64,000 nucleotides of DNA from NCBI GenBank assembly GCA_028554795.2, contig CM068838.1, positions 131,263,428 to 131,327,427 on the forward strand, in the 5' to 3' direction. A model generated the notes under the pieces. It did no database searches. It saw nothing but the letters and a program-made list of their open reading frames with translations, and was not told where the DNA came from. The position numbers were made by a program, and so were the translations under genes. The DNA comes from Sinohyriopsis cumingii. Lineage: Eukaryota; Mollusca; Bivalvia; Unionida; Unionidae. This document shows, one piece after another, positions 1,651-19,666 of this stretch; the stretch's first letter is position 1, and each line of letters starts with the position of its first letter.

Positions 1651-2105
1651 AGTAGTGAATAGGTACACTATAGGGACTAGGGGACTTCCATGTTAAAAAG
1701 GGTATATCCACTCTGGGGACTATGTAAAATTTAACATAGGAGAAAAAAATATCCACTCTGGGGACTATGTAATTTAACATGGGAGAAAAAAAATATCCAT
1801 TCTAGGGACAAGGGGAATTGAACATGGGAATAGAGTTTGGGCCTGTCTAGGGACAAAGGGAATGGAACATGGGAATACTGTGTGGGCCTATCTAGGGACA
1901 AGGGGAAATGGAACAGGGTCGGGACCCTATTTTAATACGGTCCCGACCTGGTTTGTCTATGGAAAGGGAACAGGCAAAAAATTGAAACAGGGAGGGGGTT
2001 CTCTATTTTTTTTAAAAATAAAAACAATTAAAAAAATGGGCTAGGCAATTGAAAGTCAAGATCTTTTCGAGACCTATGAGTGGCCCTGAAAAGGGCCTTT
2101 GGGTT
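1651..2105 (+). repeat. Left terminal inverted repeat of the Polinton
   Basis: Matches the reverse complement of 19218-19666 almost base for base. The outer 250 bp is built of about six tandem units of roughly 45 bp, each starting GGGGAC or GGGAC and carrying an AACATGGGA-like core. Further in is a 10-bp perfect inverted repeat (GGTCGGGACC / GGTCCCGACC, about 12-nt loop). The inner end carries a minus-strand histone-type stem-loop. Confidence 0.95.
2082..2097 (-). terminator. Histone-type mRNA 3' stem-loop (left TIR, minus strand)
   Basis: On the minus strand this reads AAAGGCCCTTTTCAGGGCCACTCA: a 6-bp stem GGCCCT/AGGGCC, a TTTC loop, AAA before it and ACTCA after it, then a purine stretch CGAAAAGATC. 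This is the layout of animal replication-dependent histone 3' ends (SLBP site, cleavage site, U7-pairing downstream element). It lies just beyond the stop of the minus-strand gene at 2121-2351. Confidence 0.85.
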
Positions 2106-2120
2106 TATGTTAATATGCCC

Positions 2121-2351
2121 TTAACATAAAGGGCATCTGCGACATCTTCTTCGTCTTAGGCTTCGTCTAATGGTAGGTCCATAGACTAAAACTCTGTTAA
2201 GGCATCCTTGCCTCTCCACGTAAATCCAACGTATCCATAGGCTGGTGTCGGTCCAATGGACAACTGTCCACTTGGATCGGACATACGTCGGTATGTCCGT
2301 CGTGAACATCATCGAAGACACAAGCGTAGAAGATTGAACGTCGGTCCACAT
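2121..2351 (-). CDS. Small left-end accessory protein, 76 aa, unknown
   Basis: Outermost left gene, transcribed outward into the TIR. It begins MWTDVQSSTLVSS and ends in an Arg/Cys-rich tail (RRSLRRRRCRRCPLC). No family was recognised. The case for a real gene rests on context: a minus-strand TATAAATA 52 bp before the ATG, a histone-type stem-loop just after the stop, and mirror symmetry with the outward-pointing gene at the right end. The codon pattern alone would not convince. Confidence 0.5.
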   Translation of the reverse strand: MWTDVQSSTLVSSMMFTTDIPTYVRSKWTVVHWTDTSLWIRWIYVERQGCLNRVLVYGPTIRRSLRRRRCRRCPLC

Positions 2352-2395
2352 ATTGAGGCGCCGAGAACAGGTGAATCAATGCAGTGAACTGCGCT

Positions 2396-2403
2396 TATTT
2401 ATA
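2396..2403 (-). promoter_or_regulatory. TATA box of the left-end minus-strand gene
   Basis: TATAAATA on the minus strand, 52 bp before the ATG at 2351. It sits back to back with the plus-strand promoter at 2478-2523, so the two left-end genes are divergent from a gap of about 110 bp. Confidence 0.6.
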
Positions 2404-2477
2404 GGGAGAGAAAGGATTGAAACGGATTAAGTTCATTGACCAGTCCAAACATGCGTTACAAAATTCAGTCATGGGCC

Positions 2478-2523
2478 GTCCAATCGGAAGAGAGCAGTCT
2501 GTGACGTCACGTGGTCTATATAG
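2478..2523 (+). promoter_or_regulatory. Compact CCAAT / CRE / E-box / TATA promoter
   Basis: In order: CCAAT (GTCCAATCGG, about 2478-2487), the palindromic CRE TGACGTCA (2502-2509), an overlapping E-box CACGTG (2508-2513) and TATATAG (2517-2523). The TATA lies exactly 54 bp before the ATG at 2571. CCAAT plus TATA is also typical of histone gene promoters, which fits the histone-type 3' end of the same gene. Confidence 0.7.
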
Positions 2524-2570
2524 ATTCGCTAGCGCCTGTGTGTAGTCAATCCATGCGACAGTTTTTCAAC

Positions 2571-3137
2571 ATGACGGAAACTCAGAAAACGATCAATTGG
2601 GGTGCACCAGCAGTGGAGACCGCCCAAGGGAACCCGGACTTACTTTCAGAAGAGGTGAATTGGGATTTTGTGGATTTTCTTACCTCGCAAGAATTTGTTC
2701 CGGAACCTTCGTCTCCTTCATTACCGCACGTGGAGAATTTTAGACAGAGACAGAAAGAAGAATTGGAGAAATTTATACAACAGCAAAAGGAAGCGGAACA
2801 AGCTTTTCTCCTACAACAACAACAGAAAGAAGAAGAGGTAAGAAAAAAACAACAAGAAGAAGCAGCAGCAAAGAAACAAGGGTGTGAAAATCAAACGGTC
2901 ACGGTACTGTTAGACATTTTAGCGGAGTTAAGAAGTCTGAAACAAATGTATCAGACTTCTTTATTACGACCGAAGAGAATACGACCTTCCCGAGCTAAAC
3001 ACGCCAACCCTGTGACTAAGCCTACCGTGCCACCCTTAGTGATTTCAACCAAATCATCATCATCATCAACAGTACGCAGTCCAGAAGTAGGCCTTGGCCG
3101 TGGCAAAGGCTTAAGACAGTTAAAGTTGATTGCTTAA
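2571..3137 (+). CDS. Coiled-coil Gln/Glu/Lys-rich accessory protein, 188 aa
   Basis: The start at 2571 is chosen for its good context (AAC before ATG) and its 54-bp spacing from the TATA box; an in-frame ATG at 2553 has a poor context. The N-terminus is acidic with aromatic residues (VNWDFVDFLTSQEF). The middle, roughly residues 65-115, is a long charged helix rich in QKEEE and QQQQ, predicted coiled coil. The C-terminal third is basic and Ser/Pro-rich. The family was not recognised. The stop is followed after 21 bp by a histone-type stem-loop. Placement next to the TIR and the end signal group it with the right-end helical proteins. It looks whole. Confidence 0.75.
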   Translation: MTETQKTINWGAPAVETAQGNPDLLSEEVNWDFVDFLTSQEFVPEPSSPSLPHVENFRQRQKEELEKFIQQQKEAEQAFLLQQQQKEEEVRKKQQEEAAAKKQGCENQTVTVLLDILAELRSLKQMYQTSLLRPKRIRPSRAKHANPVTKPTVPPLVISTKSSSSSTVRSPEVGLGRGKGLRQLKLIA

Positions 3138-3158
3138 ACTCACCCCTACACCAAAAAA

Positions 3159-3199
3159 GGCCCTTTTCAGGGCCACCCACGTCTCTCGAAAAGAGATAG
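3159..3199 (+). terminator. Histone-type 3' stem-loop with purine-rich downstream element
   Basis: GGCCCTTTTCAGGGCC at 3159-3174 is preceded by CCAAAAAA and followed by ACCCA, then CTCTCGAAAAGAGATAGAC. Stem length (6), loop length (4), flanks and the spacing to the purine element all match the animal histone pre-mRNA processing signal. No AATAAA serves this gene on the plus strand nearby. Confidence 0.9.
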
Positions 3200-3226
3200 A
3201 CTTTCAATTACCGACATCCATTCAAA

Positions 3227-3228
<2 letters not shown>

Positions 3229-3283
<55 letters not shown>
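3229..3283. repeat. Poly(A) tract of 55 bases
   Basis: An uninterrupted A run about 55 bp beyond the histone-type stem-loop, between two convergent genes. It is either a simple repeat or a trace of a reverse-transcribed tail. Its length may be uncertain in the assembly. Confidence 0.8.
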
Positions 3284-3285
<2 letters not shown>

Positions 3286-3376
3286 ATTTTATCCCTATAG
3301 TACGTGTTTATGAGTGTGTGAGTGTACGTTCTTATTTTAAAATCAAAACCCAAAGACACTTACCTTATATAATTAA

Positions 3377-3382
3377 TTTATT
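3377..3382 (-). terminator. AATAAA of the CCHC gene
   Basis: Minus-strand AATAAA about 57 bp after the stop of the gene at 3439-3894. Inner genes of the element use this ordinary signal, unlike the outer genes. Confidence 0.6.
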
Positions 3383-3438
3383 CTTTTATCAGTATTTACA
3401 ATCCAATTCACAATTCACAACATAGCACTTTAAAAAGT

Positions 3439-3894
3439 TCATAGACTTCTTCTGTTTCTTTGTTTACTCTCTCTGTTTTTCAATTTCTTCACCGTCACAG
3501 TCTTTTCCTCCTCTTCCTCCTCACTTTCTTCCCTTCTTCTTTTCTTCTCCTGTTTCTTTTTCTTCACCTGTCTACTTTCTTCCTCTTCTTCATCCTCTCC
3601 AGAATCCCTCTCTTCTTGCTCCTCTTGTTTCTTAGGGCAATCTGGAGACCAATGTCCTTTTTCTTGACAATAATAACAGGTATCTTGACTTTTGTCTTTT
3701 CTAACCCCCTTTTTTCTTTTTTGACGGTCTGGACACTCTGAAGACCAATGCCCTTTTTTCTGACAGATATAGCAAGTATCTTCACTTTTATCTCGAAAGG
3801 AAGGAGAGTACTCTGTCGGCTGGTCTGAAGAAAATTTTCTAATGACCCCTCGCAACGCTCTGATGAAACGTTCGATTTGGTTAGTCTCTTCCAT
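3439..3894 (-). CDS. Double CCHC zinc-knuckle protein, 151 aa
   Basis: Start at 3894 (MEETNQIERFIRALRG). Two C-x2-C-x4-H-x4-C knuckles are visible: C41, C44, H49, C54 and C73, C76, H81, C86, each with the GHW signature. The C-terminal half alternates acidic Glu runs with Lys/Arg runs. Zinc knuckles of this type bind single-stranded nucleic acid and are typical of retroviral Gag and of cellular CNBP. The gene is divergent from the polymerase gene, with its own TATATAAA 62 bp before the ATG. A role in binding replicating or packaged DNA is inference. It looks whole. Confidence 0.85.
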   Translation of the reverse strand: MEETNQIERFIRALRGVIRKFSSDQPTEYSPSFRDKSEDTCYICQKKGHWSSECPDRQKRKKGVRKDKSQDTCYYCQEKGHWSPDCPKKQEEQEERDSGEDEEEEESRQVKKKKQEKKRRREESEEEEEEKTVTVKKLKNRESKQRNRRSL

Positions 3895-3948
3895 CGTTGT
3901 GCTCGGTTTGAGAGTGAAATGAATAGTGAAAGGACAAGACACATACCC

Positions 3949-3980
3949 TTTATATACGCTGGTCTGCCATGACTATAAAT
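3949..3980. promoter_or_regulatory. Divergent TATA boxes of the CCHC and polymerase genes
   Basis: Minus-strand TATATAAA at 3949-3956 serves the CCHC gene. Plus-strand TATAAAT at 3974-3980 lies exactly 54 bp before the polymerase ATG at 4028. The two promoters are only some 20 bp apart. Confidence 0.65.
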
Positions 3981-4027
3981 TAGTCCATGGTGTTTAAATT
4001 TTAGTCATTTGGCTTTTTGCTATCAAG

Positions 4028-7000
4028 ATGAAACGATCCAATTCATTTGAGAAGAAAGAAGAAGAAAGTAAGAGGCAGAAACGTGATCTATCGCCTCGTA
4101 CCAGAGCTGAAGTCTTGGCACAAATTCATGCCAGTGATTTTGAAGAGGACATGAGTGAACCAGAATCCGAACCCTCTAAACAAAGTTCACCACCCTTAGT
4201 TAACCCTGAAAAATACTATTCCATTCGAGAGACAGAAAAGCGCTCCTCTAGAAAATTTAGAACCACGGCTTACAAATACACGGTGAAGTTTAAAAATTTC
4301 AAGTCCGACGTACCCTTAGAGAAAGCAGAAGGGTTCATCACCGGGGTGTGGGATTCTTTGCTTACCACACTCAAGCGACAATGTCAACCCAAAGAAGACG
4401 ATCGCTTGAGACTTTCCATACAACACGACGGTTTGAAATCCCCTGTTTGGATCGAGTTTAGCAACCCTGCAGAATTGACAGCTTCCAAAGTCATGGACAA
4501 GATTCAACACGTACAACAATCCAATGACCAGTTTGACATCACCGATGGAAAAGCCACACTGGACATGACCCACGTCTCTCATCCTCAAGGGACTGGCCGC
4601 AAAAAGGTATTATTGGTGGACGACCTTCGTAACACCAAAACAAGCCTCGTCCGAATTAACAACCCTCAAGACCAGATGTGTTTAGCCAGGGCTATCGTGG
4701 TGGGACGAACTTATGCCAACAAGAACGACACGGTAGAATGGAAAAGAGACTGGGAGAACATTCGAAAATCGAACCGAGCCAAACAACGAAACGAAGCAGA
4801 ACTTCTGTTACAACAAACAGGCCTGTCCAAAGACTCACCCTGTGGCATTCCTGAGATGCAAAAATTGCAAGACGCCCTAGCTCCAAGATACACCTTGAAA
4901 GTGCACCCTCAAGAAGTGCGCGGACCTCTGTTGTTTCGAGGCCAAGACTTTAAGGACGGAAAATACATTCACCTTTATCATCACGATGACCATTTCGATA
5001 CCATTACCAGTGTCACCGGATTCCTTGGATACAAATATTGCTGTGAGAAATGTGACCATGGTTATAATAATCGAGAGCAACACAAACATTGCGGATCGAA
5101 ATGTTCAGGATGTTTGGCCTCTCCACCCTGTCTGAGCGAAGGGCAAGAACCAGTGCATTGTCCTGCTTGTCTGCGCACATTTGTCAGCCCTGCCTGTTAC
5201 CAACAACATCTGAAGACGCAAGGTTCACAGCAGAAATGTGCTTGTCAACTCCTGAGATTGTGCCCTACCTGTGGACAAGGAATATGTACCAATACTGTCA
5301 AGGCACACGTATGTCGAGGAAAGAAAAAATGTCACATTTGTCATCACATCGTGGACTTGGAACACCAATGCTACGTGCAAAAATACCAACCCCAACCAGA
5401 GAATGAGGACGGTCACAAGAAGAAAGACAATTTCATCTTTTTCGATTTCGAATGCATGCAAGAGACTGGCATTCACATTCCTAATTTCTGCCTGGCTCAT
5501 CGAGCGTGCGAGAGGTGCATTCAAGAACCTATCTTCAGTCATTGCCCTCACTGCAGCAAGATTCCCGGAGGGCGTGAAAAAATCTTTCGAGGACCGAACG
5601 CGCTAGCCGATTTCGCCCGATGGGTCTTAGACCCCATCGACAAGACATGGAGCCAAGAGGATATCGAACGTTACGGAGATTGTCATCGTCATGCCACGGT
5701 GATGGCTCACAATTTCTCCGGATACGACGGACAGTTTCTTTTGAGATACTATACGGAACATGGCACCGAGCGTCCTAAAGTGACTTTGAACGGAGCCAAA
5801 ATCATTTTCGTGCAAGTGGGACAAGTACAGTTTAAAGATTCGATGAGCTACTTGGCCATGCCTTTGAGCCGAATGCCTAAAAAGTTTGGAATGACAGAAA
5901 TGGCTAAAGGGTACTTTCCACACTTTTTCAATACGGAAGCCAATCAACATGCCGTTATACCCCGACTTACCTGAGGCTCACTATTACGACCCTGACTACA
6001 TGCGTACCGAACAACGAGAAGCTTTCTACGCTTGGTACCAGGCTCACGCCTCGGACCCCTTCGACTTTCAGGAAGAAATGCTAGAGTAGTGTCGTTCCTA
6101 CGTGGACATTGTACGGCGTTGCTGTGGAAAATTTCGAGAACTGTTCATGGAACACGGAGGGGTCGATCCTTTGAAGGAAGCTTGCACCATTGCCAAAGCG
6201 TGTTCCTTAGTGTACAGGCAACGATTCAAATACCGTGGCTGTCATCAGTCCTCAAACGACCAACTATGTCAAACGTCAATACTCGGTCAAAGCCCTACGC
6301 TGGTTACATTACTTGTGCGGCAAGGAAGACAAATGGATTCAGCATGCCCGCAACGGAGGAGGTGAAAAGACCTTCGGAACGTATTCGGTCGATGGCTGGG
6401 ACTTAGAAAACCCCAAGATCGTGTACGAGTTTAACGGTTGCTTATTTCACGGATGCCCCGTCTGTTACCCTGACCGTGGCACTAAAAATCAGTTTTTACA
6501 ACGAACCATGGAAGACTTGTACCAGACCACTTGTCAGCGGCGCCTAAAGTTAGAACAGGAAGGATACCAAGTGATGGAAATGTGGGAACACGAATACGAT
6601 CACCGTTTGAAAACCGATCCCGAATTTAAACGGACCGTGGAAAGTTACCAGTTCATGGACCCGCTGAACCCGAGGGATAGTTTGTACGGAGGAAGGACCA
6701 ATGCTACCTGTTTGCTGTACCAAGCCGACGAAGAGAAAGGAGAAGAAATGAAATACTTGGACGTGTGTTCGCTGTATCCCTACGTGTGCAAATATTGTCG
6801 CTTTCCTGCAGGGCACCCACAATTGTTCACCGAACACATCGACCTGAAAAACATTCGACAATACGAAGGCTTGATCAAGTGCAAAGTTTTGCCTCCCACG
6901 GACTTGTACCATCCCGTCTTACCTCACCATTGCCAAGGCAAACTGATGTTTCCTTTGTGCCGTACTTGTGCAGAAACGTGCAACCAAGATCAACCTTGTC

Positions 7001-8080
7001 AGCACACCCAGGAAGAACGGGCCTTGACGGGAACCTGGGTCAGCGTAGAATTGTTCAAAGCTCTGGACATGGGATATCAACTGTTAGAAGCGTACGAAAT
7101 TTGTCACTTTCCCAAGACAGAACAATACCATAAGGGTGACCCCACGCAGAAAGGCATTTTCGCAGACTACGTGGATGCCTTTTTGAAACTAAAGCAAGAA
7201 GTCAGTGGCTATCCTTCCTGGTGTCACACTCCCGAAGACCAAAAGACATTCAAAGAGAAATACTGGGCACAAGAAGGCATCACTTTAGATCACATCGAGA
7301 AAAACGAAGGCAGGCGATCGTTTGCCAAAGTGATGTTAAATTGTTTGTGGGGTAAAATGGCACAATGCCCGTGTTTACCCAAGACGGAGTGTTCGACAGA
7401 ACCTTCCCGCTACTTCCAGATGATTCACGACAAAACCAAATTCATGAAACACGTGGACGTCATTCGCGAAGATTTGATCTTGGTCAATTACGAAGAAGAT
7501 CTGGACTTTGTACAAGACGACCCCTTTGGAAATGTCATCATTGCGGCTTACGTGACAGCTCATGCTCGCTTAAAATTGTACGAAGCTTTAGAGCTGTTAG
7601 GGGAATGTGTCCTGTACTTTGACACGGACAGTTGCATTTACATCCATCACCCGAGTCAACAGCACCCTGACATCGAAGGAGACCGTTTAGGAGCCTGGAC
7701 AGATGAGCACCCCGACGACAAGATTCTAAGTTTCGCCAGTGGCGGTCCTAAAAATTACGGTTACCGGGATAAACAAGGAGAAGTGCACACGAAGTGTAAA
7801 GTGAAAGGATTGACACTGAATTATCGTACCAGTCGAGTGGTGAACTTTGGGGTATTGAAAGAAGCCTTGCAGTCTGAAAAAGATAAACTTTAAAGTGACC
7901 ACCTATCAACCCAACAAGACTGTACGTTTACACACTCACCACATCGTCAGTCGACCCTTGGAAAAAGTCTATCAAATCGTGTACCAGAAGCGAGTCCGAC
8001 TTCCCAATCATTTCACCTTACCGTATGGACACGTCGGTATTGGTCTGTATATAAAAAGGAACCCTAGGCAAGATCGATAG
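4028..8080 (+). pseudogene. Protein-primed family B DNA polymerase (Polinton POLB), broken
   Basis: Replicates the element by protein priming. From the N-terminus: a Lys-rich region, a Cys/His-rich block around 5040-5360, exonuclease motif I (FIFFDFECM), exonuclease motif II (AHNFSGYDGQF), the Polinton GCLFHGCPVC segment, polymerase motif A (DVCSLYPYV, about 6760), motif B (KVMLNCLWGKMAQ, about 7330) and motif C (YFDTDSCIY, about 7616). All expected catalytic blocks are present in order, and total length fits the family (over 1,200 codons). About three breaks. The TATA at 3974 gives a 54-nt leader. Confidence 0.93.
8048..8057 (+). promoter_or_regulatory. TATA box of the BIR gene
   Basis: TATATAAAAAGG, 65 bp before the ATG at 8113. 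Only the region after the polymerase lies between, so the BIR gene has its own promoter. Confidence 0.65.
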
Positions 8081-8112
8081 TTCATTGTGACTACCAAGAC
8101 TAACCGAACAAG

Positions 8113-8748
8113 ATGAATACTTTCAGAGAAACACATAACAAGTTCAGACAGGCACACTTCAAGTGTGGGGCTTCTGAAGTAGAATGCGATTGTGAGCTTT
8201 GCGATGGGAACGATGCTGTACGCTGTGACCTTAGCGATGCCGTAAAGCATCATGGGAACTTTGTTTTCACTACCCCTATCATGGAAAGTGATGCTGTGCG
8301 TGCCAAACCTGAGGGATGCGGAAGCGATTCCGCTCGTCCTCTTGGACACTTTACTGGGTTTCGTTTTAAAGGTGGATGTTCACCCTCACGTTTACCCCCC
8401 TACGGATGTCATCCAGCCCTGATCAAACTCCTGTCCATGTCACCCAACCCTCATCGAAACGAACCTGTGAAAGACGAATATTCGTTCCCTGTGCGTTTGT
8501 CGGAATACTGCGACTTTGAAAATCGTCTTCAATCATTCAAAGGAAAATGGCCTAAGTATCTGGGAGGACCGACCCCCGAAGAATTAGCCAGAGCCGGATT
8601 GTTCTACTTGGGCGAAGGAGATAAAGTCAGGTGCTTCAGTTGCGGTGTGTCACTTCACCACTGGGAACCACAAGATTCGGCCTACGTAAAACATGCTCGA
8701 TGGTCACTGAATTGTCATTACTTACCCTTAGTGGGACCGAGACATTGA
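8113..8748 (+). CDS. BIR-domain (inhibitor-of-apoptosis-like) protein, 211 aa
   Basis: Residues about 137-205 form one BIR domain: NRLQSFKGKWP start, ELARAGLFYLGEGDKVRCFSC core, WEP, and zinc ligands C174, C177, H194 and C201 in exact C-x2-C-x16-H-x6-C spacing. The first 125 residues are Cys-rich and not recognised (CDCELCDG). No RING domain is present. BIR proteins bind caspases or other death-pathway partners, and viral IAPs keep infected cells alive. Placement between polymerase and F-box-like genes, with its own TATA box, marks it as an accessory gene, probably taken from a host. It looks whole. Confidence 0.9.
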   Translation: MNTFRETHNKFRQAHFKCGASEVECDCELCDGNDAVRCDLSDAVKHHGNFVFTTPIMESDAVRAKPEGCGSDSARPLGHFTGFRFKGGCSPSRLPPYGCHPALIKLLSMSPNPHRNEPVKDEYSFPVRLSEYCDFENRLQSFKGKWPKYLGGPTPEELARAGLFYLGEGDKVRCFSCGVSLHHWEPQDSAYVKHARWSLNCHYLPLVGPRH

Positions 8749-8770
8749 AGTAACTTACCATAACCTGTGT

Positions 8771-9223
8771 ATGGATACTTTACAAGAGAACATTCGTGCT
8801 TTGCCTGTGGAGTTGAGAGAAAGGATTTACCGAGAGCTGGTCAAAATACAAATGAAACGTAAAGAACAATTGCATCCGTTACGTCACCACATGTTTAATC
8901 ACTGGTACCTGAATGCTATACAAGGACTGATTGAGTTGAAAGTGTTCCATTGGAGAGACATTGATCAACGAACCCCTGGTCTTAAAAAGAATTGGTTTGG
9001 TATTGATGATTCTATCTACTACATTGTAAACTTACTGGATCGAATTCCAGAGGAAGAGTTAACGAATTACCAACATCTTTTACGCAATGTCGACTTAGTG
9101 AAAGAGGAAACTTCTGAACGAATTGTAATGTGTAAATTAGTGACTAAACGATTTAGATTCGACAATGAATTAAAACTATGTCTGTGCAAACAGTACATTT
9201 ATTGTGTGAGAAAGAGAATTTAG
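8771..9223 (+). CDS. F-box-like accessory protein, copy 1, 150 aa
   Basis: Begins 22 bp after the BIR gene. The N-terminal 40 residues (IRALPVELRERIYRELVKIQ) follow the F-box core pattern LPxELxxxIxxxL. The rest is charged and helical (EEELTNYQHLLRNVDLVKEE) with no recognised domain. A near copy follows at 9236. F-box proteins link targets to SCF ubiquitin ligases, and several large DNA viruses carry them. Assignment by the short motif is tentative. It looks whole. Confidence 0.6.
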   Translation: MDTLQENIRALPVELRERIYRELVKIQMKRKEQLHPLRHHMFNHWYLNAIQGLIELKVFHWRDIDQRTPGLKKNWFGIDDSIYYIVNLLDRIPEEELTNYQHLLRNVDLVKEETSERIVMCKLVTKRFRFDNELKLCLCKQYIYCVRKRI

Positions 9224-9235
9224 TATGACCTATTC

Positions 9236-9690
9236 ATGGATACTTTACAAGAGAACATACGTGCTTTGCCTGTGGAGTTGAGAGACCGCATTTACCGAGA
9301 GCTGGTCAAAATACAAGTGAAACGTAAAGAACAGTTGCATCCGTTACGTCACGAGATCTTTAACCACTGGTACCTGAATGGTATAAAAGAACTGATTCGT
9401 CAGAAATTGTTTCAGTGGTCAGACCTTGTTCAATACTTCCAGGCCCCGATGATCCACATGTTCATAATTTTGGTTACTTTGAGATTCACCTAGAGCAACG
9501 TATTGAGAAAGACAAGTTAAAGGATTACCAACATATTTTACATGGAATCTACTTAGCGGAAGAGGAAACTTCTAATCGAACTCTGACGTTTCGGTTACAG
9601 TATGCAAGATTTAAATTTCCCAATGGAGAACGAAGATCTCTGGCTAGAAAGTACGTGTATTGTTTCCGAAACAAAGAGAGTATAAAAACA
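9236..9690 (+). pseudogene. F-box-like accessory protein, copy 2, broken
   Basis: Tandem duplicate of the gene at 8771, separated from it by 12 bp. The first 50 residues are almost identical to copy 1 (MDTLQENIRALPVELR), and later parts keep the same charged helices (KLKDYQHILHGIYLAEEETS). About one break. The better conservation of the F-box-like start suggests a recent duplication or stronger constraint there. Confidence 0.6.
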
Positions 9691-9697
9691 GGCTGCC

Positions 9698-10421
9698 ATG
9701 CCACGACTTTTATCACATGTAATTGAACAGATTCCGTGGAAGGAACTCAATGACCATATTCAAACCGTGGATCATTGCCATCGATTATTACAAGAACTGT
9801 ATCCATTCAATTTGGGTCGACAAGTGGTGTGTGTCTTAGTGACTTGTTTTCTAGGATTTCGTTTACCAGCCGATTCCTTGTGGACTCTTTTTACGATCAG
9901 TACTTACCATCCCAATGGCCTTAAATGGTCACGAAAGACTCCTTTTGCTCAAAGCCTTGCGTTTTCATCTGGATACTTCTCGACCTCTACGGGAAAAAAA
10001 GATTCGTCAACGTTTAGCTACCGAAGACGTGTATGACGATGTGTGTGTAGCTTGTGACTTACACCCCCACTGGACAGATGTCCGTGCCTGGAAAGAATGG
10101 GATTTTGAGGCTTGGACCCAAGAAGTGACCCAGTATGCACGAGAGTTGTTCAAGGAAAAAAGTCACTTTTCAACCTGTGTTAGTGACGGTGCCAAAAAAA
10201 AAAACGTCACCCAGGACAGGACAGTCGTGAACATGCCTGAAAGACCCTTTCGGGAGGACACTTGTGTGACCTTACCCCCTATAGAACTGGTGAGAACTTT
10301 ACCCAAAACATGTTGTACAGACACTTGTTTCTATTCCACGTTGATAATTTCGATGTGCCTTTTTTCGTTGTACTTAAGCCTTTGGCTTTTATGTATTTTT
10401 GTCTTTCGTATTCATGTTTAA
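9698..10421 (+). pseudogene. Unrecognised Polinton region with a C-terminal membrane segment, probably broken
   Basis: Overlapping open frames. The first begins MPRLLSHVIEQIPWKELNDH. The second begins MALNGHERLLLLKALRFHLD, is rich in Trp and charged residues in its middle, and ends in one strongly hydrophobic segment (IISMCLFSLYLSLWLLCIFV). A TATAAAAA lies at 9681. AATAAA follows at 10429. No family was recognised, and whether this is one gene or two is open. About one break. Confidence 0.4.
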
Positions 10422-10428
10422 AACATTC

Positions 10429-10434: not shown

Positions 10435-10449
10435 CGTGTCCTGAAAAAG

Positions 10450-11250: not shown

Positions 11251-11286
11251 CTCAGACACTTTTCGTCTGTCTCTCACAGTTTGAAC

Positions 11287-12118: not shown

Positions 12119-12121
12119 GGC

Positions 12122-12259: not shown

Positions 12260-12265
12260 AAAAGG
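12255..12265 (+). promoter_or_regulatory. TATA box
   Basis: TATAAAAAAGG, 60 bp before the ATG at 12315, heading the pX-like region. Confidence 0.5.
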
Positions 12266-12314
12266 TCTGTGACTAAGTAGGGGTATCAGTGTTTTTGGTG
12301 CTGAAGACTCAAAG

Positions 12315-12717: not shown

Positions 12718-12765
12718 AAAGGCCCTCGGAAGTCCCAAGATCTCAGAATTAACCCCTGACATCCC

Positions 12766-13389
12766 ATGGAAGGACGAAAACTAGCTTTAGTGCCTTACAA
12801 ACGATGGATGGAATACCATCGATGGCAAGAACAACGCACCCCGCATTTACCTCCCAATCCCAATTTGAGCGAAATGTCCTAGTTACAACACGAATTGCAG
12901 TCCTTGATGGATCTCCAAGATTTGTCCGAAACAGAAAAATCGCAAAAGTACGGTCAACTCTTGCAACGACTGCAACTCTTTCACCAGAAAGCTTTAGACG
13001 AAACAGCTCTACCCGCTCTGAAAGATTTTAAGACCTTGATGAAAAGTCCAGCACCATCGCCAGTACCACTACCACCACTACCAGTGACCAAGACAGAAAA
13101 AGGAGAAGAAGAGGAAGGGTTTCAAACTCCACCAGAAAAAGTACGCAAGTTAACAACACCACCTACCTCCAGAATTGGATGGATTAAAAAGATGATGACC
13201 TCCCCTTCTTCATCAGAAGAGAAAAAAAAGGTGAAGACAGAAGTGAAACAAAAAAAAATATCCCCTGTTCAGACATCCTCCTCCTCCTCCTCGACACCTA
13301 TTGCCGGCCGCACACGCAAAGCATTACAATCCAAGAAAGTACCCCAAGCGAGAAAGAGTAGCATCTTCCAAGAGTGGGTGCCTTATTAA
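12766..13389 (+). pseudogene. Polinton protein with ALVPYKRW start and Ser/Pro/Lys-rich tail, broken
   Basis: Starts MEGRKLALVPYKRWMEYHRW, an N-terminal ALVPY-type motif that I believe recurs in Polinton proteins next to the integrase. The middle is helical (SETEKSQKYGQLLQRLQLFH), and the last third is Ser/Pro/Lys-rich and low in complexity. Role unknown. About one break. It ends 15 bp before the integrase. Confidence 0.5.
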
Positions 13390-13404
13390 CAAACAAACCA
13401 ACAA

Positions 13405-14514
13405 ATGGAAAAACTCTTAGCCAGCATTTACTACGATCCCTCCCATCCTGCAGGTTACGCAGGAGTTCAAAAATTGTATCGTGCTGCCAAAACTCGACTG
13501 AAAAGTATCCGTATACCTCAAGTGCAACGATGGTTACAAGAACAAGCTACCTACACTTTACACAAACCCATTCGACGCAAGTTTTCCAGAAGTCGCACCC
13601 GAGTGGAAGGCATCGATCATCAATGGCAAGTCGATTTAGCCGATGTCTCTCATTTGGCCAGCTACAATCGTGGCTACAAATATTTGTTTTGTGTCATCGA
13701 CGTCTTTTCCAAATTTGCCTGGGTCGTACGCTTGACTTCCAAATCGAGCAGCGAGTTAGTGCGAGCCCTGCAACGGGTGTTGAAACAAAGCGGTCGTCAC
13801 CCTCTTCGATGGCAAACGGACAAAGGCACCGAATTTCTGAACCAAGCTTTCCAAAAAGAATTAAAGAAACGTGACATTCATTTTTTTGCCACCGAGAATC
13901 CTGAAACCAAAGCCAGCATCGTGGAACGTTTTCAACGCACTTTGAAAGAACGCATGTGGAAATATTTTACGCATCACCACACTCTGAAGTGCATCGACAT
14001 CTTACCACACCTGGTGCAAGCTTACAACCAATCTTACCATCGAAGCATTGGATGTGCCCCGCAAGAAGTGACTCCCGACAACGAAGTGCTGATGTTTGAG
14101 CGCCTGTTTGGTGCGTCCCCGACGAGGGCTGTCCCCAAGAAAAGTGGAGTGTTGGACGTAGGAGATTGGGTACGCATTGGCAAAATCAAACGCACTTTCG
14201 ACAAAGGTTACTTACCTAACTGGACCACCGAATTGTTTCGTGTCACTGGACGAGTGCATGGTCGTCATCCTGCCGTCTATAAATTGGAAGACATGAACGG
14301 AGAAGTGTTCAAAGGAACGTTTTATTTGCCCGAGTTACAACGTGTCGCCAAAAAAGAAGACGACGTGTACGACATCGAAAGCATTCTCGAGCGCAGAACC
14401 CGTAAAGTGGGTAAACGACGTGTCAAAGAAGTCAAAGTACGTTGGAAAGGATATCCGCCCAGTTTTGATTCTTGGATCGACGCTTCGCAAGTCATCGACT
14501 ATAAAAAGAAGTGA
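13405..14514 (+). CDS. Retrovirus-like integrase with chromodomain (Polinton INT), 369 aa
   Basis: Inserts the element and makes the 6-bp duplication. The catalytic core shows D77 (HQWQVDLAD), D139 (WQTDKGTEF) and E174 (ASIVERFQ), a D,D-35-E arrangement. An SH3-like C-terminal domain follows (GDWVRIGKIKRTFDKGYLPN). From about residue 320 there is a chromodomain (YDIESILERR, VRWKGYPPSFDSWI). The N-terminal zinc-binding part looks reduced. Chromodomains on integrases can direct insertion to particular chromatin. Length is normal and the frame looks whole. Its stop overlaps a TATAAAAAG that may serve the next gene. Confidence 0.95.
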   Translation: MEKLLASIYYDPSHPAGYAGVQKLYRAAKTRLKSIRIPQVQRWLQEQATYTLHKPIRRKFSRSRTRVEGIDHQWQVDLADVSHLASYNRGYKYLFCVIDVFSKFAWVVRLTSKSSSELVRALQRVLKQSGRHPLRWQTDKGTEFLNQAFQKELKKRDIHFFATENPETKASIVERFQRTLKERMWKYFTHHHTLKCIDILPHLVQAYNQSYHRSIGCAPQEVTPDNEVLMFERLFGASPTRAVPKKSGVLDVGDWVRIGKIKRTFDKGYLPNWTTELFRVTGRVHGRHPAVYKLEDMNGEVFKGTFYLPELQRVAKKEDDVYDIESILERRTRKVGKRRVKEVKVRWKGYPPSFDSWIDASQVIDYKKK

Positions 14515-14930
14515 CCATCATACCCTTTCACACAGACGCAGCTACGTCGACCACTCCTTCACCCAGTTCTTCTCTGCAAGATTTACAGAAACAACCCTTG
14601 TGGGTGTGGTGTGGAGAACGTGTGCCTAAAACGCAAATCGTCTTTTTCTGCCAAATCTTCGTGGTGTATTGTGTCATCGGGGCAGCCATTGCCAGTCTGA
14701 GTTTGCAACAAGGAGACAAACAATTGTGGACCATTTTATTGGGCAGTTGCATCGGTTACCTGCTTCCTAATCCCTCCCTGAAATTCACCTCGAACGGGAA
14801 CCCCGGGAACCTTGTGTCCAGTGCCAGTGCCAGTCACCACTCCTATAACAACAATAACCCCATTTTGGGCGGAGACACACCTCTGACGTCCAGTAACCCC
14901 TCGGACAGCCAAAGAACTCTGGAATTATGA
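14511..14930 (+). CDS. Two-span membrane protein typical of Polintons, start unclear
   Basis: About 135 codons. Ser/Thr/Pro N-terminus, then LWVWCGERVPKTQIVFFCQI leading into a first membrane span, a second span ending in GYLLPNP, and an Asn/Ser-rich tail. A W-CGxRVPxxQ then GYxLPxP layout recurs in Polinton proteins placed between integrase and penton. The start codon is unclear. Its last bases overlap the start of the penton gene. Probably a virion or assembly protein. Confidence 0.55.
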   Translation: MTIIPFHTDAATSTTPSPSSSLQDLQKQPLWVWCGERVPKTQIVFFCQIFVVYCVIGAAIASLSLQQGDKQLWTILLGSCIGYLLPNPSLKFTSNGNPGNLVSSASASHHSYNNNNPILGGDTPLTSSNPSDSQRTLEL

Positions 14931-15849
14931 GCAATAACAACCAATTTTACTTAACCTTACCCAGTGACATTTCCATGGAGGTGTTTCCCAAGAACACGTT
15001 GTGCTGTTACACGGCCAAATTACCTCAGGCCATCCCATTAGATCACGAAGCCCATTGGGAAGTGGCTTTAGTGGAAATCATTCACCCGACCCAAGTCCTC
15101 AATGTCCTTCCTAATCAAAATTCTTTTACGGTGGAAGTTCATGACGAGCCAATGCAAAAATACTTGAATACCCATGTCAAATATGATCACAAAACCTATG
15201 ATGACAAAACTCAAAAGTGGTCCTACCACTTGTTCATTCCCCCAGGCTATCATTTTAGTGGTCAACATTTGGTCAGCACATTACCTCCAGATTTAATGTC
15301 GTGTTTCTGAAAGCTTTGGAAAGTGTCAAAAAAAGTGTCACCATGGAGTACCACAAAGCAGCTCGTCGCTTCTTGATTAAATTTGACGGGGGTAAAATCG
15401 TGTCCATTTTATTTTGTCCTGAATTGTTTGACATGTTGGGCGGAGACATGGACATGAGAATGGTCATGATCAAGAAAAACGAATTACCAATCATTTACGA
15501 CAACGAGTCTTTTAGCAAGTTATTTCGTTCCCCGGTAGAACTGAACCAAGGACTGAATTTGATGTTTGTGTACTCCGATGTGGTGGAGTACAACGTGGTG
15601 GGACACACCTCCGTACCGTTACTGCGTGTCATTCCTTTCAAAGTGGATTCTACCGCTGACGAGGAAGGTGGAAACACTTATCACGTCCTCCGAGAATTTG
15701 TACATCCTCACTATTTGCCCGTCAGCAAGTCTTATTTGGACACGGTCAACATTACTATAAAAGGAGATCTGGGACAAAATATTTCATTCACCAAAGGGAA
15801 AGTCACGGTGAAACTCCATTTTCGAAAACGGTTCTCTCACGACTCGTAA
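14927..15849 (+). pseudogene. Penton-like minor capsid protein, broken
   Basis: Starts MSNNNQFYLTLPSDISMEVF, with WEVALVEIIHPTQ early. Later come YSDVVEYNVVGHTSVPLLRV and a VKLHFRKRF end. These are the conserved blocks of the single-jelly-roll minor capsid (penton) protein of Polintons and adintoviruses, which forms the five-fold vertices. Total length fits the family. About one break. The start overlaps the end of the membrane-protein gene. Confidence 0.85.
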
Positions 15850-15852
15850 GTC

Positions 15853-16578
15853 ATGTATCCAGTGTACCAAGGGGTTGCACGACAGCGAGGACACGGTTTA
15901 GGAGATATGTTAAAATCGGCCTTTCGTTCGGTGGCCCCGGTGTTGAAACCGATGGTGACACGCGGATTGCACGCCTTGAAAGATGCGGCATTGACACAAG
16001 GCAAAGAATTTCTCCAAAATGTCATCATCGACAAACAAAACCCCAAAGAAGCTTTCCTGAGGGCAGGCAAAAATGTCTTGCTGCAAACGGGTGAAGATGA
16101 ACTCCCTCATCGCAAACCTCAAGACCATCAAGCTTATGTGATCAACACGGACGACAGTCATCTCCCAGGAACCCACTGGGTAGCCGTCTACTTTCCTCAA
16201 GAAGGATGTGTGGAATATTTCGATTTGTATGGATTGCCTCCTTTGGAAGACGATATCATTGACTTTATGAGAAGAAATGCTCAGACCACCCGATTCAATA
16301 ATGTGAAATTACAAGGCACAGATTCCTTGGTGTGTGGACAATATTGCGTGTATTTTCTGCATCATCGCAGCCTGGGCTATTCCTTAGAACATTTAGTAAC
16401 TCATTTTGATCCTCGTTCTTCTTCTAGAAACTATGTGAAAGTAGATCGATGGTTTTGTGACCAGTATGCTTATCTTTTGTCTCCAGCTAGGAAACGTAGT
16501 GTCCATCAATGGCCTAATGACTTCCAACAGTGGAAATCACAATTTCATTCACAACGTTGTCAGCCCTGTCCAAAATAG
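15853..16578 (+). pseudogene. pVI-like and adenain-like protease reading frame, 241 codons
   Basis: The N-terminal part MYPVYQGVARQRGHGLGDML matches the pVI-like minor virion protein of Polintons. The C-terminal part carries protease blocks: GTHWVAVYF (catalytic His), YFDLYGLPP (acid residue) and CGQYCVYFL (catalytic Cys), as in adenovirus protease and Ulp1 cysteine peptidases. In most Polintons these are separate products, so this frame is atypical and counted among the broken parts. The protease matures virion proteins. Confidence 0.8.
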
Positions 16579-16688
16579 TGTGTGAGTTGAAAAAAAAATG
16601 TTTGGTATTTGAAAAAAATGTTTGATATTATATTGTTGGATTATTGTTAAAAAATGTTAGAGTTGTTTGTTAGTGTTAAGTGATTTTG

Positions 16689-16694
16689 AATAAA
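16689..16694 (+). terminator. AATAAA after the virion gene block
   Basis: About 110 bp after the stop at 16578, in a T/A-rich gap (16579-16781) with no other feature. It marks the end of the core gene block, after which the histone-type-terminated cassettes begin. Confidence 0.55.
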
Positions 16695-16819
16695 AAATGT
16701 TGTTTTGAAAAAAATGCCTTTGTGGTTTGTTTGGCTATAAGAATTTTGATTCATACGCTTTGACTTCTCTCTATCTCTCTCATGACACTCATTGAACGTT
16801 CCGGCTCGAAAACCGTGGA

Positions 16820-16857
16820 GGGATGTTTTCCTTCACGTCCGCGCTTTGACTTTAAAA
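16820..16857 (+). promoter_or_regulatory. Right-end promoter module, copy 1
   Basis: TGTTTTCCTTCACGTC, then CGCGCTTTGAC and TTTAAAA (16851-16857), 60 bp before the ATG at 16911. The module recurs before the next two genes. In this copy the TATA is a weaker TTTAAAA. Confidence 0.65.
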
Positions 16858-16910
16858 CAGGGGGCAGTTTCCAGTCTAACCATCCATTGTCGATTCATCC
16901 TCCTACGAAG

Positions 16911-17273
16911 ATGTGCTCCAAACTAGCTAAGCTAAACGAAGCCTACGTGAATTTGCATAGGGTCAGACACAGTCTGATACCGAAGCCAGAAGAGACAGAG
17001 AATGTGAGAATGTTAAAAGTCACTGAAGACCTGATAGAAGAGCTCTTCAGAGAAGAAATGAACAGGGAGAAAGAAGAATGGACAGAAAAGTACAGACTTC
17101 AGAAACAGCAGAGAGAGCAGCAACAGCAACAACAACAGCAGCAGCAACCTGAACCTGACAGAGGCTTTGTCGATTGTCGTATCGATACCAAAGAGTACTT
17201 CTTCTCTTTCCGAAGAAGCAGACCTATCGTCAGAAAGTCTATCGTTAGAGGACGTCGCATTCTTAGAAACTAA
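16911..17273 (+). CDS. Right-end helical accessory protein 1, 120 aa
   Basis: The start at 16911 is chosen because it is placed like the start of the paralogue at 17762, after the shared promoter module and a matching leader. An upstream in-frame ATG at 16782 lies before the module. MCSKLAKLNEAYVNLHRVRH aligns with the paralogue start MNTRLAKLLELHVHLEYAR. Then comes a charged helix (EDLIEELFREEMNREKEEW), a run of about ten Gln, and a basic Arg/Ser/Ile tail. Not recognised in known families. It ends 48 bp before a histone-type stem-loop. It looks whole. Confidence 0.65.
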   Translation: MCSKLAKLNEAYVNLHRVRHSLIPKPEETENVRMLKVTEDLIEELFREEMNREKEEWTEKYRLQKQQREQQQQQQQQQQPEPDRGFVDCRIDTKEYFFSFRRSRPIVRKSIVRGRRILRN

Positions 17274-17321
17274 AAGATCGCCCTAGCTTCAACTTCACGC
17301 AAGCAAAAAAAAAAAAAAAAC

Positions 17322-17337
17322 AGCCCTTTTCAGGGTT
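17322..17337 (+). terminator. Histone-type 3' stem-loop of right-end gene 1
   Basis: AGCCCTTTTCAGGGTT: 6-bp stem with one G-T pair, TTTC loop, an A-rich run before it and ACCCA after it, then purine-rich GGAAAAGAAATAAC. It lies within 65 bp of the stop at 17273. Confidence 0.8.
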
Positions 17338-17340
17338 ACC

Positions 17341-17676
17341 CAAATCTCTGGAAAAGAAATAACAATCGATTTGCCAATGTGTGCATGTAGAGTAGTGTGA
17401 ATATAAACATTGACTCTTTTCTGGTGTGATTGTATGTGTTTGTGTTTGTAAGCATCCACGTACGTTTGTGTGGATAGTAGATAATGTTTTTTGATGTTTG
17501 ACGTGTGGGAATAGTAGATTTGGGGTTTGTTTATTGCTGTTCCGCGTATGTGGATAGTATATTATTTTTAATGAAAAATTTTAAAATAGTAATGGGTAGT
17601 AAAAAAATTGAGTGAGTGTTTCTTTTAGGTCCGCGCGTTGTTTGGTCATGATCTAGGTAATATAAATTTTTTTTAT
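17341..17676 (+). repeat. Spacer with repeated GTGTGGATAGTAGAT motifs (unit 1)
   Basis: Non-coding spacer between right-end genes 1 and 2. It carries GTGGATAGTAGAT-type motifs, a GTACGTTTGTGTGG motif and ATGATCTAGGTAATATAAAT. The same order recurs at 18118-18510, so the spacers duplicated together with the genes. Confidence 0.7.
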
Positions 17677-17714
17677 GGGATGTTTTCCTTCACGTCTGCA
17701 CTTTTAGTATAAAT
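17677..17714 (+). promoter_or_regulatory. Right-end promoter module, copy 2
   Basis: GGGATGTTTTCCTTCACGTC then TATAAAT at 17708-17714, exactly 54 bp before the ATG at 17762. It is preceded by a partial second module (GTCCGCGCGTT with ATCTAGGTAATATAAAT) at about 17628-17668. Confidence 0.7.
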
Positions 17715-17761
17715 TGAAAATCGCTCGGCAGTCTAGCTACCCTTGTCGATTGATCAAGAGA

Positions 17762-18070
17762 ATGAACACCAGACTAGCAAAACTGCTTGAACTTCATGTA
17801 CACCTGGAATATGCCAGGTGTATAGTGAATGAGCTGGCTGCAGAGGACATCGTAGAAGAGGCAAGGATAAAGAAAGAAGAGGAGGAGAGAAGACAGAGGG
17901 AAGATGAGGAAAAGAAAATAGGAGAGAGGATGTTGTATAAAATTCCAGAGACAGAGGATTGGGGTGCTGAAGAAAATCATCCCGCCTCTGCACTCCCAAG
18001 AAAAAAAGTAAAAGGAGACTGGGGAAGAAGATGTGTGTGTGGTGCCAGGCCTGGAAGGTGCCATCATTAA
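17762..18070 (+). CDS. Right-end helical accessory protein 2, 102 aa
   Basis: MNTRLAKLLELHVHLEYAR start, then an acidic-basic helix (EEARIKKEEEERRQREDEEK) and a Cys/Arg-rich tail (WGRRCVCGARPGRCHH). A paralogue of the gene at 16911 by start sequence, promoter and 3' signal, but the C-terminal parts differ. The start lies 54 bp after its TATA. A histone-type stem-loop follows after 29 bp. Function unknown. It looks whole. Confidence 0.65.
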   Translation: MNTRLAKLLELHVHLEYARCIVNELAAEDIVEEARIKKEEEERRQREDEEKKIGERMLYKIPETEDWGAEENHPASALPRKKVKGDWGRRCVCGARPGRCHH

Positions 18071-18099
18071 CCAGGTATCACTGGAGTTCAAAAACAAGC

Positions 18100-18115
18100 A
18101 GCCCTTTTCAGGGCT
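18100..18115 (+). terminator. Histone-type 3' stem-loop of right-end gene 2
   Basis: AGCCCTTTTCAGGGCT with a 6-bp stem and TTTC loop, followed by ACCCA and purine-rich CTAGAAAAGAAATAG. Its 3' flank (TTGCCAATGTGTG) matches the flank of the stem-loop at 17322. Confidence 0.85.
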
Positions 18116-18117
18116 AC

Positions 18118-18204
18118 CCAATACTCTAGAAAAGAAATAGTAATCAAATTGCCAATGTGTGTATGTAGAGTAGTGTGAATATAAACACTGACTCTTTTTT
18201 TAAA

Positions 18205-18256
<52 letters not shown>

Positions 18257-18440
18257 TAAGCGCTCACGTACGTTTGTGTGGATAGTAGATTATTGGGTTA
18301 TGTAAGAGCTTAAGTTGGTTTGTGCGGATAGTAGATTAGGGTTTCATTTTAATGCTTTGCGTGTGTGGATAGTAGATTTGGGGTTTGTTTATTGCTGCTT
18401 CACGTATGTGGATAGTAGATAATATAAGATGAGAAAAAGT
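18118..18440 (+). repeat. Spacer with repeated GTGTGGATAGTAGAT motifs (unit 2) and (TG)n
   Basis: Second copy of the cassette spacer. It contains a (TG)n microsatellite at about 18207-18253 and at least four GGATAGTAGAT motifs, in the same order as at 17341-17676. Confidence 0.75.
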
Positions 18441-18441
18441 A

Positions 18442-18546
18442 GGGGATGTTTTCCTTCACGTCCGCGCGTTTTAAGTAATGATCTAGGTAATATAAATATT
18501 ATGTCTTAGGGGGTGTTTTCCTTCACGTCCCCGCTTTAACTATAAG
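18442..18546 (+). promoter_or_regulatory. Right-end promoter module, doubled copy 3
   Basis: Two modules in tandem. GATGTTTTCCTTCACGTCCG at about 18445 has AATATAAATATT after it, and GTGTTTTCCTTCACGTCC at about 18512 has CTATAAG at 18540-18546. The nearer TATA is 57 bp before the ATG at 18598. Confidence 0.65.
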
Positions 18547-18597
18547 AACACACAAGGTTTGATGTTCGAACCATTCTACGGAATAAAGACAAGGAAG

Positions 18598-19197
18598 ATG
18601 GTAGCTGTAACAGAATTTTTTTACCAGTTGAAGGACATTTGGTATTGGATGGTGGATGGAGCTTATGTAGTGGAAAGGACTGAACGAGAATGGAAGCATG
18701 AAGCTACCCGGGATTTTGTCAGAAGGCAAGTGACCAACCTGAAATTAGCTATGGATCTGGTGAAAGAGATGATAGAAGAAGAAATAAAAAGACTAAGAGG
18801 CTTTATAGATCCAGAGTATGTAAAGATTGGTCACTTAAAGGAAGCCATGGATAATGTGATAGAAGTAAGGTGCTTTTTGGAAGACGTAATGGAATGGACA
18901 GAGTGGTCCTTTGTCAAAAACGGTCTGGACCAGCTTAAGAAATCGGAAGAACTTATGAGAAAAGTAATGGAGGAAGAAGTAAAGAAGATCAAATACAAGT
19001 GGAATAAAGAACGAAAGGATAAGGAAAACTTAAAGAAAAAAGAGGCCTTTGACAAACTCAACAACAATTGGATCATAATACAGGAGAAATTCCGAGCAAT
19101 AGGTCATCCAGACTGGATGCCAGAGAAGGAGAAGAAGAAGAAGAAGAAAGGAATACTGGCAAAAGTGAGAATTTGGTGGAAGCAGTGGAGGAAATAA
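18598..19197 (+). CDS. Right-end helical accessory protein 3, 199 aa
   Basis: The start at 18598 is chosen because it has a strong context (AAGATGG) and lies 57 bp after the TATA; an in-frame ATG at 18562 is too close to the TATA. Almost wholly helical. Two internal repeats (LKLAMDLVKEMIEEEIKRL and LKKSEELMRKVMEEEVKKIK) echo the helix of gene 1. The basic tail has a run of Lys and WWKQWRK. It points outward, and its stop lies about 20 bp before the right TIR, whose histone-type stem-loop ends the transcript. Function unknown. It looks whole. Confidence 0.7.
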   Translation: MVAVTEFFYQLKDIWYWMVDGAYVVERTEREWKHEATRDFVRRQVTNLKLAMDLVKEMIEEEIKRLRGFIDPEYVKIGHLKEAMDNVIEVRCFLEDVMEWTEWSFVKNGLDQLKKSEELMRKVMEEEVKKIKYKWNKERKDKENLKKKEAFDKLNNNWIIIQEKFRAIGHPDWMPEKEKKKKKKGILAKVRIWWKQWRK

Positions 19198-19217
19198 AAG
19201 AAGAAGATGATGATGAA

Positions 19218-19666
19218 ACCAAAGGCCCTTTTCAGGGCCACTCATAGGTCTCGAAAAGATCTTGACTTTCAATTGCCTAGCCCATTTTTTTTTTAATTTA
19301 AAAAAAAAAAAATAGAGACCCCCCTCCCTGTTTTAATTTTTTGCCTGTTCCCTTTCCATAGACCCATCAGGTCGGGACCGTATTAAAATAGGGTCCCGAC
19401 CCTGTTCCATTTCCCCTTGTCCCTAGATAGGCCCACACAGTATTCCCATGTTCCATTCCCCTTGTCCCTAGACAGGCCCAAACTCTATTCCCATGTTCAA
19501 TTCCCCTTGTCCCTAGAATGGATATTTTTTTCTCCCATGTTAAATTACATAGTCCCCAGAGTGGATATTTTTTTCTCCTATGTTAAATTTTACATAGTCC
19601 CCAGAGTGGATATACCCTTTTTAACATGGAAGTCCCCTAGTCCCTAGAGTGTCCCTATTCACTACT
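19218..19666 (-). repeat. Right terminal inverted repeat of the Polinton
   Basis: Reverse complement of 1651-2105 with about a dozen substitutions and small length changes in homopolymers. It carries the same 45-bp tandem units, the GGTCGGGACC hairpin and the stem-loop, and ends CACTACT. Confidence 0.95.
19224..19239 (+). terminator. Histone-type 3' stem-loop (right TIR)
   Basis: ACCAAAGGCCC start, TTTC loop, AGGGCC, ACTCA, then TCTCGAAAAGATCTTG. It is the mirror copy of the one at 2082-2097 and lies 27 bp after the stop of the gene at 18598. Confidence 0.9.

Follow-up and report, generated by a model that had tools for sequence, protein, structure and literature searches.

The window analysed here is a stretch of 64,000 nucleotides from the bivalve Sinohyriopsis cumingii (contig CM068838.1, positions 131,263,428 to 131,327,427 of the forward strand). 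It contains a mobile element of the Polinton type, recognised by its terminal inverted repeats (TIRs), its target-site duplication (TSD) and homology to integrase, PolB, protease-like and ATPase-like proteins. The TSD is the 6-bp sequence TACAGG, found at 1645-1650 and 19667-19672, and the TIRs are about 0.46 kb long (approximately 1651-2108 and 19213-19666), with 439 identical positions in an alignment of 452. Five genes located at the two ends of the element are each followed by a stem-loop of the kind found at the 3' ends of replication-dependent histone genes. The element, these genes and their 3' ends are as follows.

1651-19666, plus strand: Polinton element
2062-2097, minus strand: 3' end 1, in the left TIR; stem-loop 2082-2097, flank ACTCA, GAAAAGA at 2062-2068; RF00032 score 37.1 bits at 2057-2102
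2121-2351, minus strand: left terminal gene, 76 amino acids, C-terminus rich in Arg and Cys (by eye), stop 23 nt before stem-loop 1
2571-3137, plus strand: left accessory gene t2511, with a basic stretch; 19 database homologues
3159-3194, plus strand: 3' end 2; stem-loop 3159-3174, flank ACCCA, GAAAAGA at 3188-3194; RF00032 score 37.1 bits at 3154-3199
16911-17273, plus strand: right accessory gene t16782, likely start MCSKLAKL, after a promoter motif
17322-17357, plus strand: 3' end 3; stem-loop 17322-17337, stem AGCCCT/AGGGTT (with A-U and G-U pairs), flank ACCCA, GAAAAGA at 17351-17357
17762-18070, plus strand: right accessory gene t17714, likely start MNTRLAKL
18100-18135, plus strand: 3' end 4; stem-loop 18100-18115, stem AGCCCT/AGGGCT (basal A-U pair), flank ACCCA, GAAAAGA at 18129-18135
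18598-19197, plus strand: right terminal gene t18559, helical, Lys-rich, alternative ATG at 18562; 5 homologues
19224-19259, plus strand: 3' end 5, in the right TIR; stem-loop 19224-19239, flank ACTCA, GAAAAGA at 19253-19259; RF00032 score 37.1 bits at 19219-19264

The five 3' ends in the window

All five stem-loops have six of six pairs, a TTTC loop and an ACCCA or ACTCA flank, with GAAAAGA 8 nt beyond. They are always located on the sense strand of the gene, just past its stop. An earlier note on this DNA had placed five signals at these coordinates and strands, each with a 6-bp stem, a TTTC loop, one of the two flanks and a purine element, and all of them were located with all of these parts. 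The stem-loops at 2082 (minus) and 19224 (plus) are one sequence, present once in each TIR, and therefore only four of the five sequences are independent. The distance from stop to stem, given in that note as 20-65 bp, was measured as 21, 48, 29, 26 and 23 nt across the five genes.

The gathering score of the Rfam model RF00032 is 34 bits, which three of the five 3' ends exceed. The fourth, 3' end 4, scores 30.5 bits (E 3.1e-5, at 18095-18141) and 3' end 3 scores 20.5 bits (E 0.17, at 17317-17362). A search pattern built from the copies in the earlier note (six pairs, loop TTT[CTA], flank AC[CT]CA) matched five times in the 64-kb window and in none of 40 first-order Markov simulations of 64 kb each. 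When the flank was left out of the pattern, the simulations gave 0.9 matches on average and 2 at most, against five in the window.

The 12 core-gene 3' ends tested in the window are all free of the stem-loop, and none occurs within 130 nt downstream of the integrase gene (13405-14514). The signal AATAAA is found after the open reading frame (ORF) 9915-10421 (site 10429), after the protease-like ORF ending at 16578 (site 16689) and after a minus-strand zinc-knuckle ORF ending at 3439 (site 3377). The claim that the core genes use AATAAA was overstated, as it holds for these three ORFs only. The right-most stem-loop gene, t18559, has an AATAAA (19193) overlapping its stop. A run of about 54 A residues is located directly 3' of stem-loop 2, at 3229-3283.

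None of the five genes appears to code for a histone, in agreement with the earlier note. Nothing above the curated Pfam cut-off was found in the four plus-strand genes. The 76-residue left gene was outside that scan, and is covered by the 75 copy loci described below, in none of which a histone was matched by tblastn. Searches of the accessory proteins with PHROGs and Pfam gave nothing convincing, and the best match in a sequence search of the PDB had an E value of 0.023. Matches from a fold search were not accepted. The AlphaFold2 model of t2511 has a mean predicted local distance difference test score (pLDDT) of 64 and one long predicted helix (72-151), while the mean pLDDT for t18559 is 75.

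Comparison with the histone genes of the host

The histone genes of the host, found with Pfam PF00125, are arranged in tandem units of about 8.3 kb (150 of 662 candidates were scored). The comparison rests on one such unit, L090, which contains H3, H4, H2B, H2A and H1. All five genes of this unit end in the stem-loop; in H2B the last residue is at 2811 (tblastn), 37 nt before the stem. The stem GGCCCT/AGGGCC is present in four of the five and is also the main class of the element, while H1 has GGTCCT/AGGACC. In all five, GAAAAG is located 8 or 9 nt past the 5-nt flank, as in the element.

A position weight matrix was made from the five host downstream elements. The five elements of the window score 12.3-15.3 against a maximum of 13.1 on both strands of the 44-kb flank, and four of the five exceed this maximum. 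Beyond the downstream element the likeness between host histone genes and the element is weak, with values of 0.03 or lower in 3 of 20 comparisons.

The four best matches between the element and the L090 unit are promoters. The promoter features of the window are listed here.

2352-2570, no strand assigned: divergent promoter between the two left genes, with CCAAT, TGACGTCA and TATA boxes on both sides
16822-16844, plus strand: histone-promoter motif, exact match to the pattern derived from H2B and H1
17619-17639, plus strand: 21-mer identical to the host H4 promoter (21/21, E 3.4e-5)
17679-17701, plus strand: histone-promoter motif, 2 mismatches
18445-18467 and 18512-18534, plus strand: two histone-promoter motifs, the first exact and the second with two mismatches

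Ahead of the right-end genes is a repeat that agrees with the H2B promoter at 23 of 24 positions and with the H1 promoter at 25 of 27. The motif used for searching is a 23-mer pattern from these two promoters, with up to 4 mismatches allowed in the window. Its four sites in the window are all upstream of the three right-end stem-loop genes, and the 44 kb of flank contain none. At the 5' ends of the copies it is located 58-72 nt before the ATG, in 7/7 and 9/9 cases.

The exact motif has 31,228 matches in the host genome, while a reversed control has none. The first 100 listed places fall into 43 clusters, which corresponds to about 13,000 clusters genome-wide by a rough extrapolation from 6.7 Mb. 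The number of motif copies suggests that Polinton right ends are present in the order of ten thousand. Twelve loci were chosen by the motif only, as the first 12 site groups by position; two of them, L098 and L099, overlap (less than 3 kb apart, on opposite strands). Of the 23 motifs in these loci, 20 have a stem-loop with a downstream element no more than 900 nt after them. No histone match was found in any of the 12, and a match to a right-end gene was found in each (in L098 on the other strand only).

The left genes have a different promoter. In the copies, CCAAT is present in 47/47, TGACGTCA in 43/47 and TATAWA in 42/47 and 47/47 on the two sides, and E2F sites were found in 0/47. It could be argued from these genes, which have the histone ending and this divergent promoter in place of the histone-promoter motif, that timing is irrelevant and that the ending simply gives stable, translated messages free of poly(A), which escape, for example, small-RNA or deadenylation control. 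However, the H4 and H2B/H1 promoter sequence at the right-end genes points to co-regulation with the histones, and we regard this explanation as unlikely.

Copies of the element and its core genes

The host assembly is 2.9 Gb in size, and RF00032 was scored at 75 of 589,472 first-look candidates. This set is not a census, because the host's own histone stem-loops are absent from the scored places. All 75 exceed the cut-off, all align to the Polinton of the window over at least 300 nt, and none has a histone match. The 75 loci (L015-L089) gave 127 pattern matches, from which two AT-rich artefacts were dropped, leaving 125 stem-loops. The ACCCA flank is present in 117 of them. A purine core was found in 123 of the 125, where the GAAAAG-like core is located 8 nt past the flank in 120 and 9 nt in 3.

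Because 75 of the 125 stem-loops were picked by model score, the remaining gene ends were counted separately as a check on bias. Among these unselected ends, the stem-loop is found at 24/26 for t2511, 20/21 for t17714 and 1/1 for t18559. For the left TIR gene it is present at 8/17, with 8 more having an intact stem and an AGCCA flank and 1 having none. The stem-loop is thus found in other copies of the element. The earlier note had named two computational results that would speak against its proposal, model scores under the threshold for most copies and the lack of such a stem-loop in any related element, and neither was obtained. The substitution of AGCCA for ACCCA marks a sub-lineage among the copies of the left TIR gene (e.g. 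L024, L033 and L065), in which the stem is intact.

The stem-loops of the copies adjoin the same genes as in the window. This bears on the possibility that the structure is a different signal, either for hairpin-directed polyadenylation or termination, as reported for transcripts of mimiviruses and virophages, or for replication of the element, in the form of a DNA palindrome. In the mimivirus and virophage rule, any palindrome ends a transcript, and polyadenylation follows. Viral transcripts end at hairpins there also, virophages are distantly related to Polintons, and two of the five stem-loops of the window are within the TIRs. However, the element has one fixed histone sequence, with a constant loop and a downstream element at the spacing of the host histones. 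It occurs in the window only on the sense strand just past a stop, and in the copies beside the same genes; internal genes bear it too, and the right-end promoters are also histone-like. Such a different signal is therefore most improbable.

Stems and their surroundings differ in conservation. The mean pairwise identity of the 125 stems is 0.95-0.99 against 0.71-0.89 in the adjacent spacer, where the value for the stem is inflated by the 75 that were picked by score. The region of the downstream element has an identity of 0.81-0.98, which is not always above its surroundings. In 14/125 stems the basal pair is A-U (A-T at pair 1) instead of G-C, with both sides changed, and this class follows t17714 and t16782. 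These observations are important for the alternative that the element acquired its 3' cassettes and promoter fragments from histone genes, or along with them, and that these are now inert, the messages being polyadenylated downstream by read-through. This would be consistent with the degenerate state of the window copy and with A[AT]TAAA near 14/125 stems and AATAAA after 16/125. In contrast, the identity of the stems (with the inflation just mentioned), the class with both sides of the pair changed, and the presence of the stem-loop at most gene ends that were not picked by score and downstream of 20 of the 23 promoter motifs make inert remnants highly improbable.

The ratio of non-synonymous to synonymous substitution (dN/dS) was obtained from stop-free copies with at least 70% coverage, using pairs with dS above 0.1, for four of the five stem-loop genes. 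The median is 0.12 for the left terminal gene (904 pairs; 46 stop-free of 52 copies), 0.42 for t2511 (239 pairs; 30 of 51), 0.31 for t17714 (65 pairs; 12 of 20) and 0.23 for t18559 (only 4 pairs; 5 of 13). No pair of any of the four has a dN/dS of 1 or more. By these ratios, four of the five stem-loop genes are under purifying selection.

The other genes considered in the window copy are the following.

4028-5974: PolB piece 1, PF03175, 25.9 bits (cut-off 25.8)
6235-7893: PolB piece 2, PF03175, 80.3 bits
8113-8748: gene with a BIR (inhibitor of apoptosis) domain
13405-14514, plus strand: core gene for an rve integrase with chromodomain, Pfam PF00665 (E 2.3e-14) and PF00385
15853-16578: protease-like ORF

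The PolB gene is split into two pieces in different frames. A candidate packaging ATPase, also in two pieces, scores slightly under the Pfam cut-offs for FtsK (E 4.9e-5) and Pox_A32 (E 1.2e-4) and matches six other Polinton loci. The protease-like ORF, a candidate adenovirus-type cysteine protease, has no Pfam match and matches stretches in the Polinton loci L005, L006, L008 and L009. Its N-terminal part, which we take to be pX-like, is fused to the protease-like part. A direct repeat of 217 nt, 85% identical (8752-8968 and 9217-9433), covers the beginning of the gene that follows the BIR gene.

No ORF for a double jelly-roll major capsid protein was seen in the element by length and position, no capsid-specific search having been made. 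The spacing relative to L005 and L006 suggests that the window copy may be internally deleted at the major-capsid stretch. The polymerase, integrase, TIRs and TSD are the grounds on which the element is kept in the Polinton/Maverick family, as a member with a deletion.

Interpretation and significance

The signals, their match to the host histone genes, their conservation across the copies and the selection on four of the five genes are features of the DNA sequence. The terminal accessory genes of this Polinton family are very probably replication-dependent histone-type transcription units. This suggests that the element runs some non-histone genes on the DNA-replication programme of the host. 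The proposal of the earlier note, that the element may borrow the SLBP/U7 histone pathway, gains support from the stem-loops, the host-like downstream element and the promoters; the promoters are independent of the stem-loops and go beyond the evidence of that note.

Animal histone messages are cut after the stem-loop in S phase by SLBP and the U7 small nuclear ribonucleoprotein (snRNP), as described in PMC7614891. Replication-dependent histone mRNAs of bivalves bear the same kind of stem-loop, according to PMC6210712. In the mechanism proposed here, the right-end genes would be switched on by histone-gene transcription factors during the S phase of the host. The SLBP/U7 snRNP machine would cut all five messages after the stem-loop, and no poly(A) would be added. 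The 5' end of the host U7 would pair with CTAGAAAAGA of the downstream element and would hold the complement of CTAGAAAAG. Messages cut in this way and free of poly(A) would share the fate of histone mRNAs, being made, exported, translated and destroyed along with them. A benefit to the element may be presumed. We consider it rather likely that a whole set of genes of this virus-like element acts as counterfeit histone genes, having both promoter and 3' end at the right end of the element. The accessory proteins would then be made in S phase by the histone-gene apparatus and gone with the histone mRNA, and at the roughly extrapolated 13,000 clusters the genes may load the host histone transcription factors, SLBP and U7.

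Several points weigh against the interpretation of the terminal genes as histone-type units. The stem-loop at 17322 is under the RF00032 cut-off and its downstream element is below the flank maximum. The promoter motif is absent from the left genes of the copies (0/48 and 0/50), and 3 of the 23 motifs in the motif-picked loci lead to no stem-loop with downstream element. A[AT]TAAA is found no more than 60 nt before the stem in 14/125 copies and AATAAA no more than 200 nt after it in 16/125, and therefore some messages may be polyadenylated. The window copy looks broken, with PolB split and the major-capsid gene not found (no capsid-specific search was made), and being degenerate it need not be expressed. 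The host U7 was not found with RF00066, with which control genomes were equally silent, and the human U7 5' end pairs no better than shuffled sequences (15 to 28% pair as well). The post-stem flank of the five 3' ends in the window is ACCCA or ACTCA, whereas L090 has ACACA, ACAAA, ATACA, ACACA and ACTTT. Since the flank varies among the host genes too, this mismatch is not taken as defining. Together with the weak likeness beyond the downstream element, it is why no claim of capture from any one histone gene is made.

Outside the host genome, the trait was also not seen in the Polinton contigs and IMG/VR scans that could be searched for it. Nine Polinton contigs in prokaryote metagenome-assembled genomes (MAGs) (L005-L013) gave no RF00032 match; none of them was shown to reach an element end, and so this negative says little about other Polintons. 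These contigs, for example in symbiont MAGs of Escarpia and Bathymodiolus, are presumably contamination by host DNA. Scans of IMG/VR with the integrase (single and aligned), the left gene and the right gene gave nothing confirmed, and the PolB scan gave one distant contig, L014. The histone stem-loop pattern matched four times in IMG/VR, in surroundings that look phage-like by eye, and none of the four passes Rfam.

It is important to compare the element with known systems. With animal Polintons/Mavericks (adintovirus-like) it shares PolB, a chromodomain integrase, TIRs and a 6-bp TSD, and possibly an FtsK/A32-like ATPase and a protease-like protein, but it differs in the histone-type 3' ends of its terminal accessory genes and, at the right end, in its host histone promoter sequence. 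With metazoan replication-dependent histone genes, as described by RF00032, it shares the stem-loop, the downstream element and the spacing seen in the host histones. However, its genes are non-histone, located in a mobile element and dispersed in the genome, whereas those of the host are in the tandem units described above; its post-stem flank is of the ACCCA type, whereas the host unit has ACACA, ACAAA, ATACA or ACTTT. Histone-like proteins are reported in some adomaviruses and a tailtomavirus (PMC11071296), and these proteins are a different thing from the histone-type signals of the element. In searches of the open-licence literature, no Polinton or other mobile element with histone-type 3' ends or promoters appeared among the papers listed.

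Histone mRNAs have been regarded as almost the only messages of animals that end in this way, to our knowledge. The element would be the first known to us to exploit the cycle of histone mRNA at its start as well as at its end. Since all 75 scored RF00032 hits are in the element, such hits in an animal genome cannot be assumed to be histone genes without checking. RNA sequencing with poly(A) selection would miss messages of this kind, and expressed accessory genes of Polintons may escape notice in this way. An element that reuses both a histone promoter and a histone 3' end is a natural test of which sequences are sufficient for S-phase expression free of poly(A). It also suggests a way in which Polintons match their life cycle to the DNA replication of the host.

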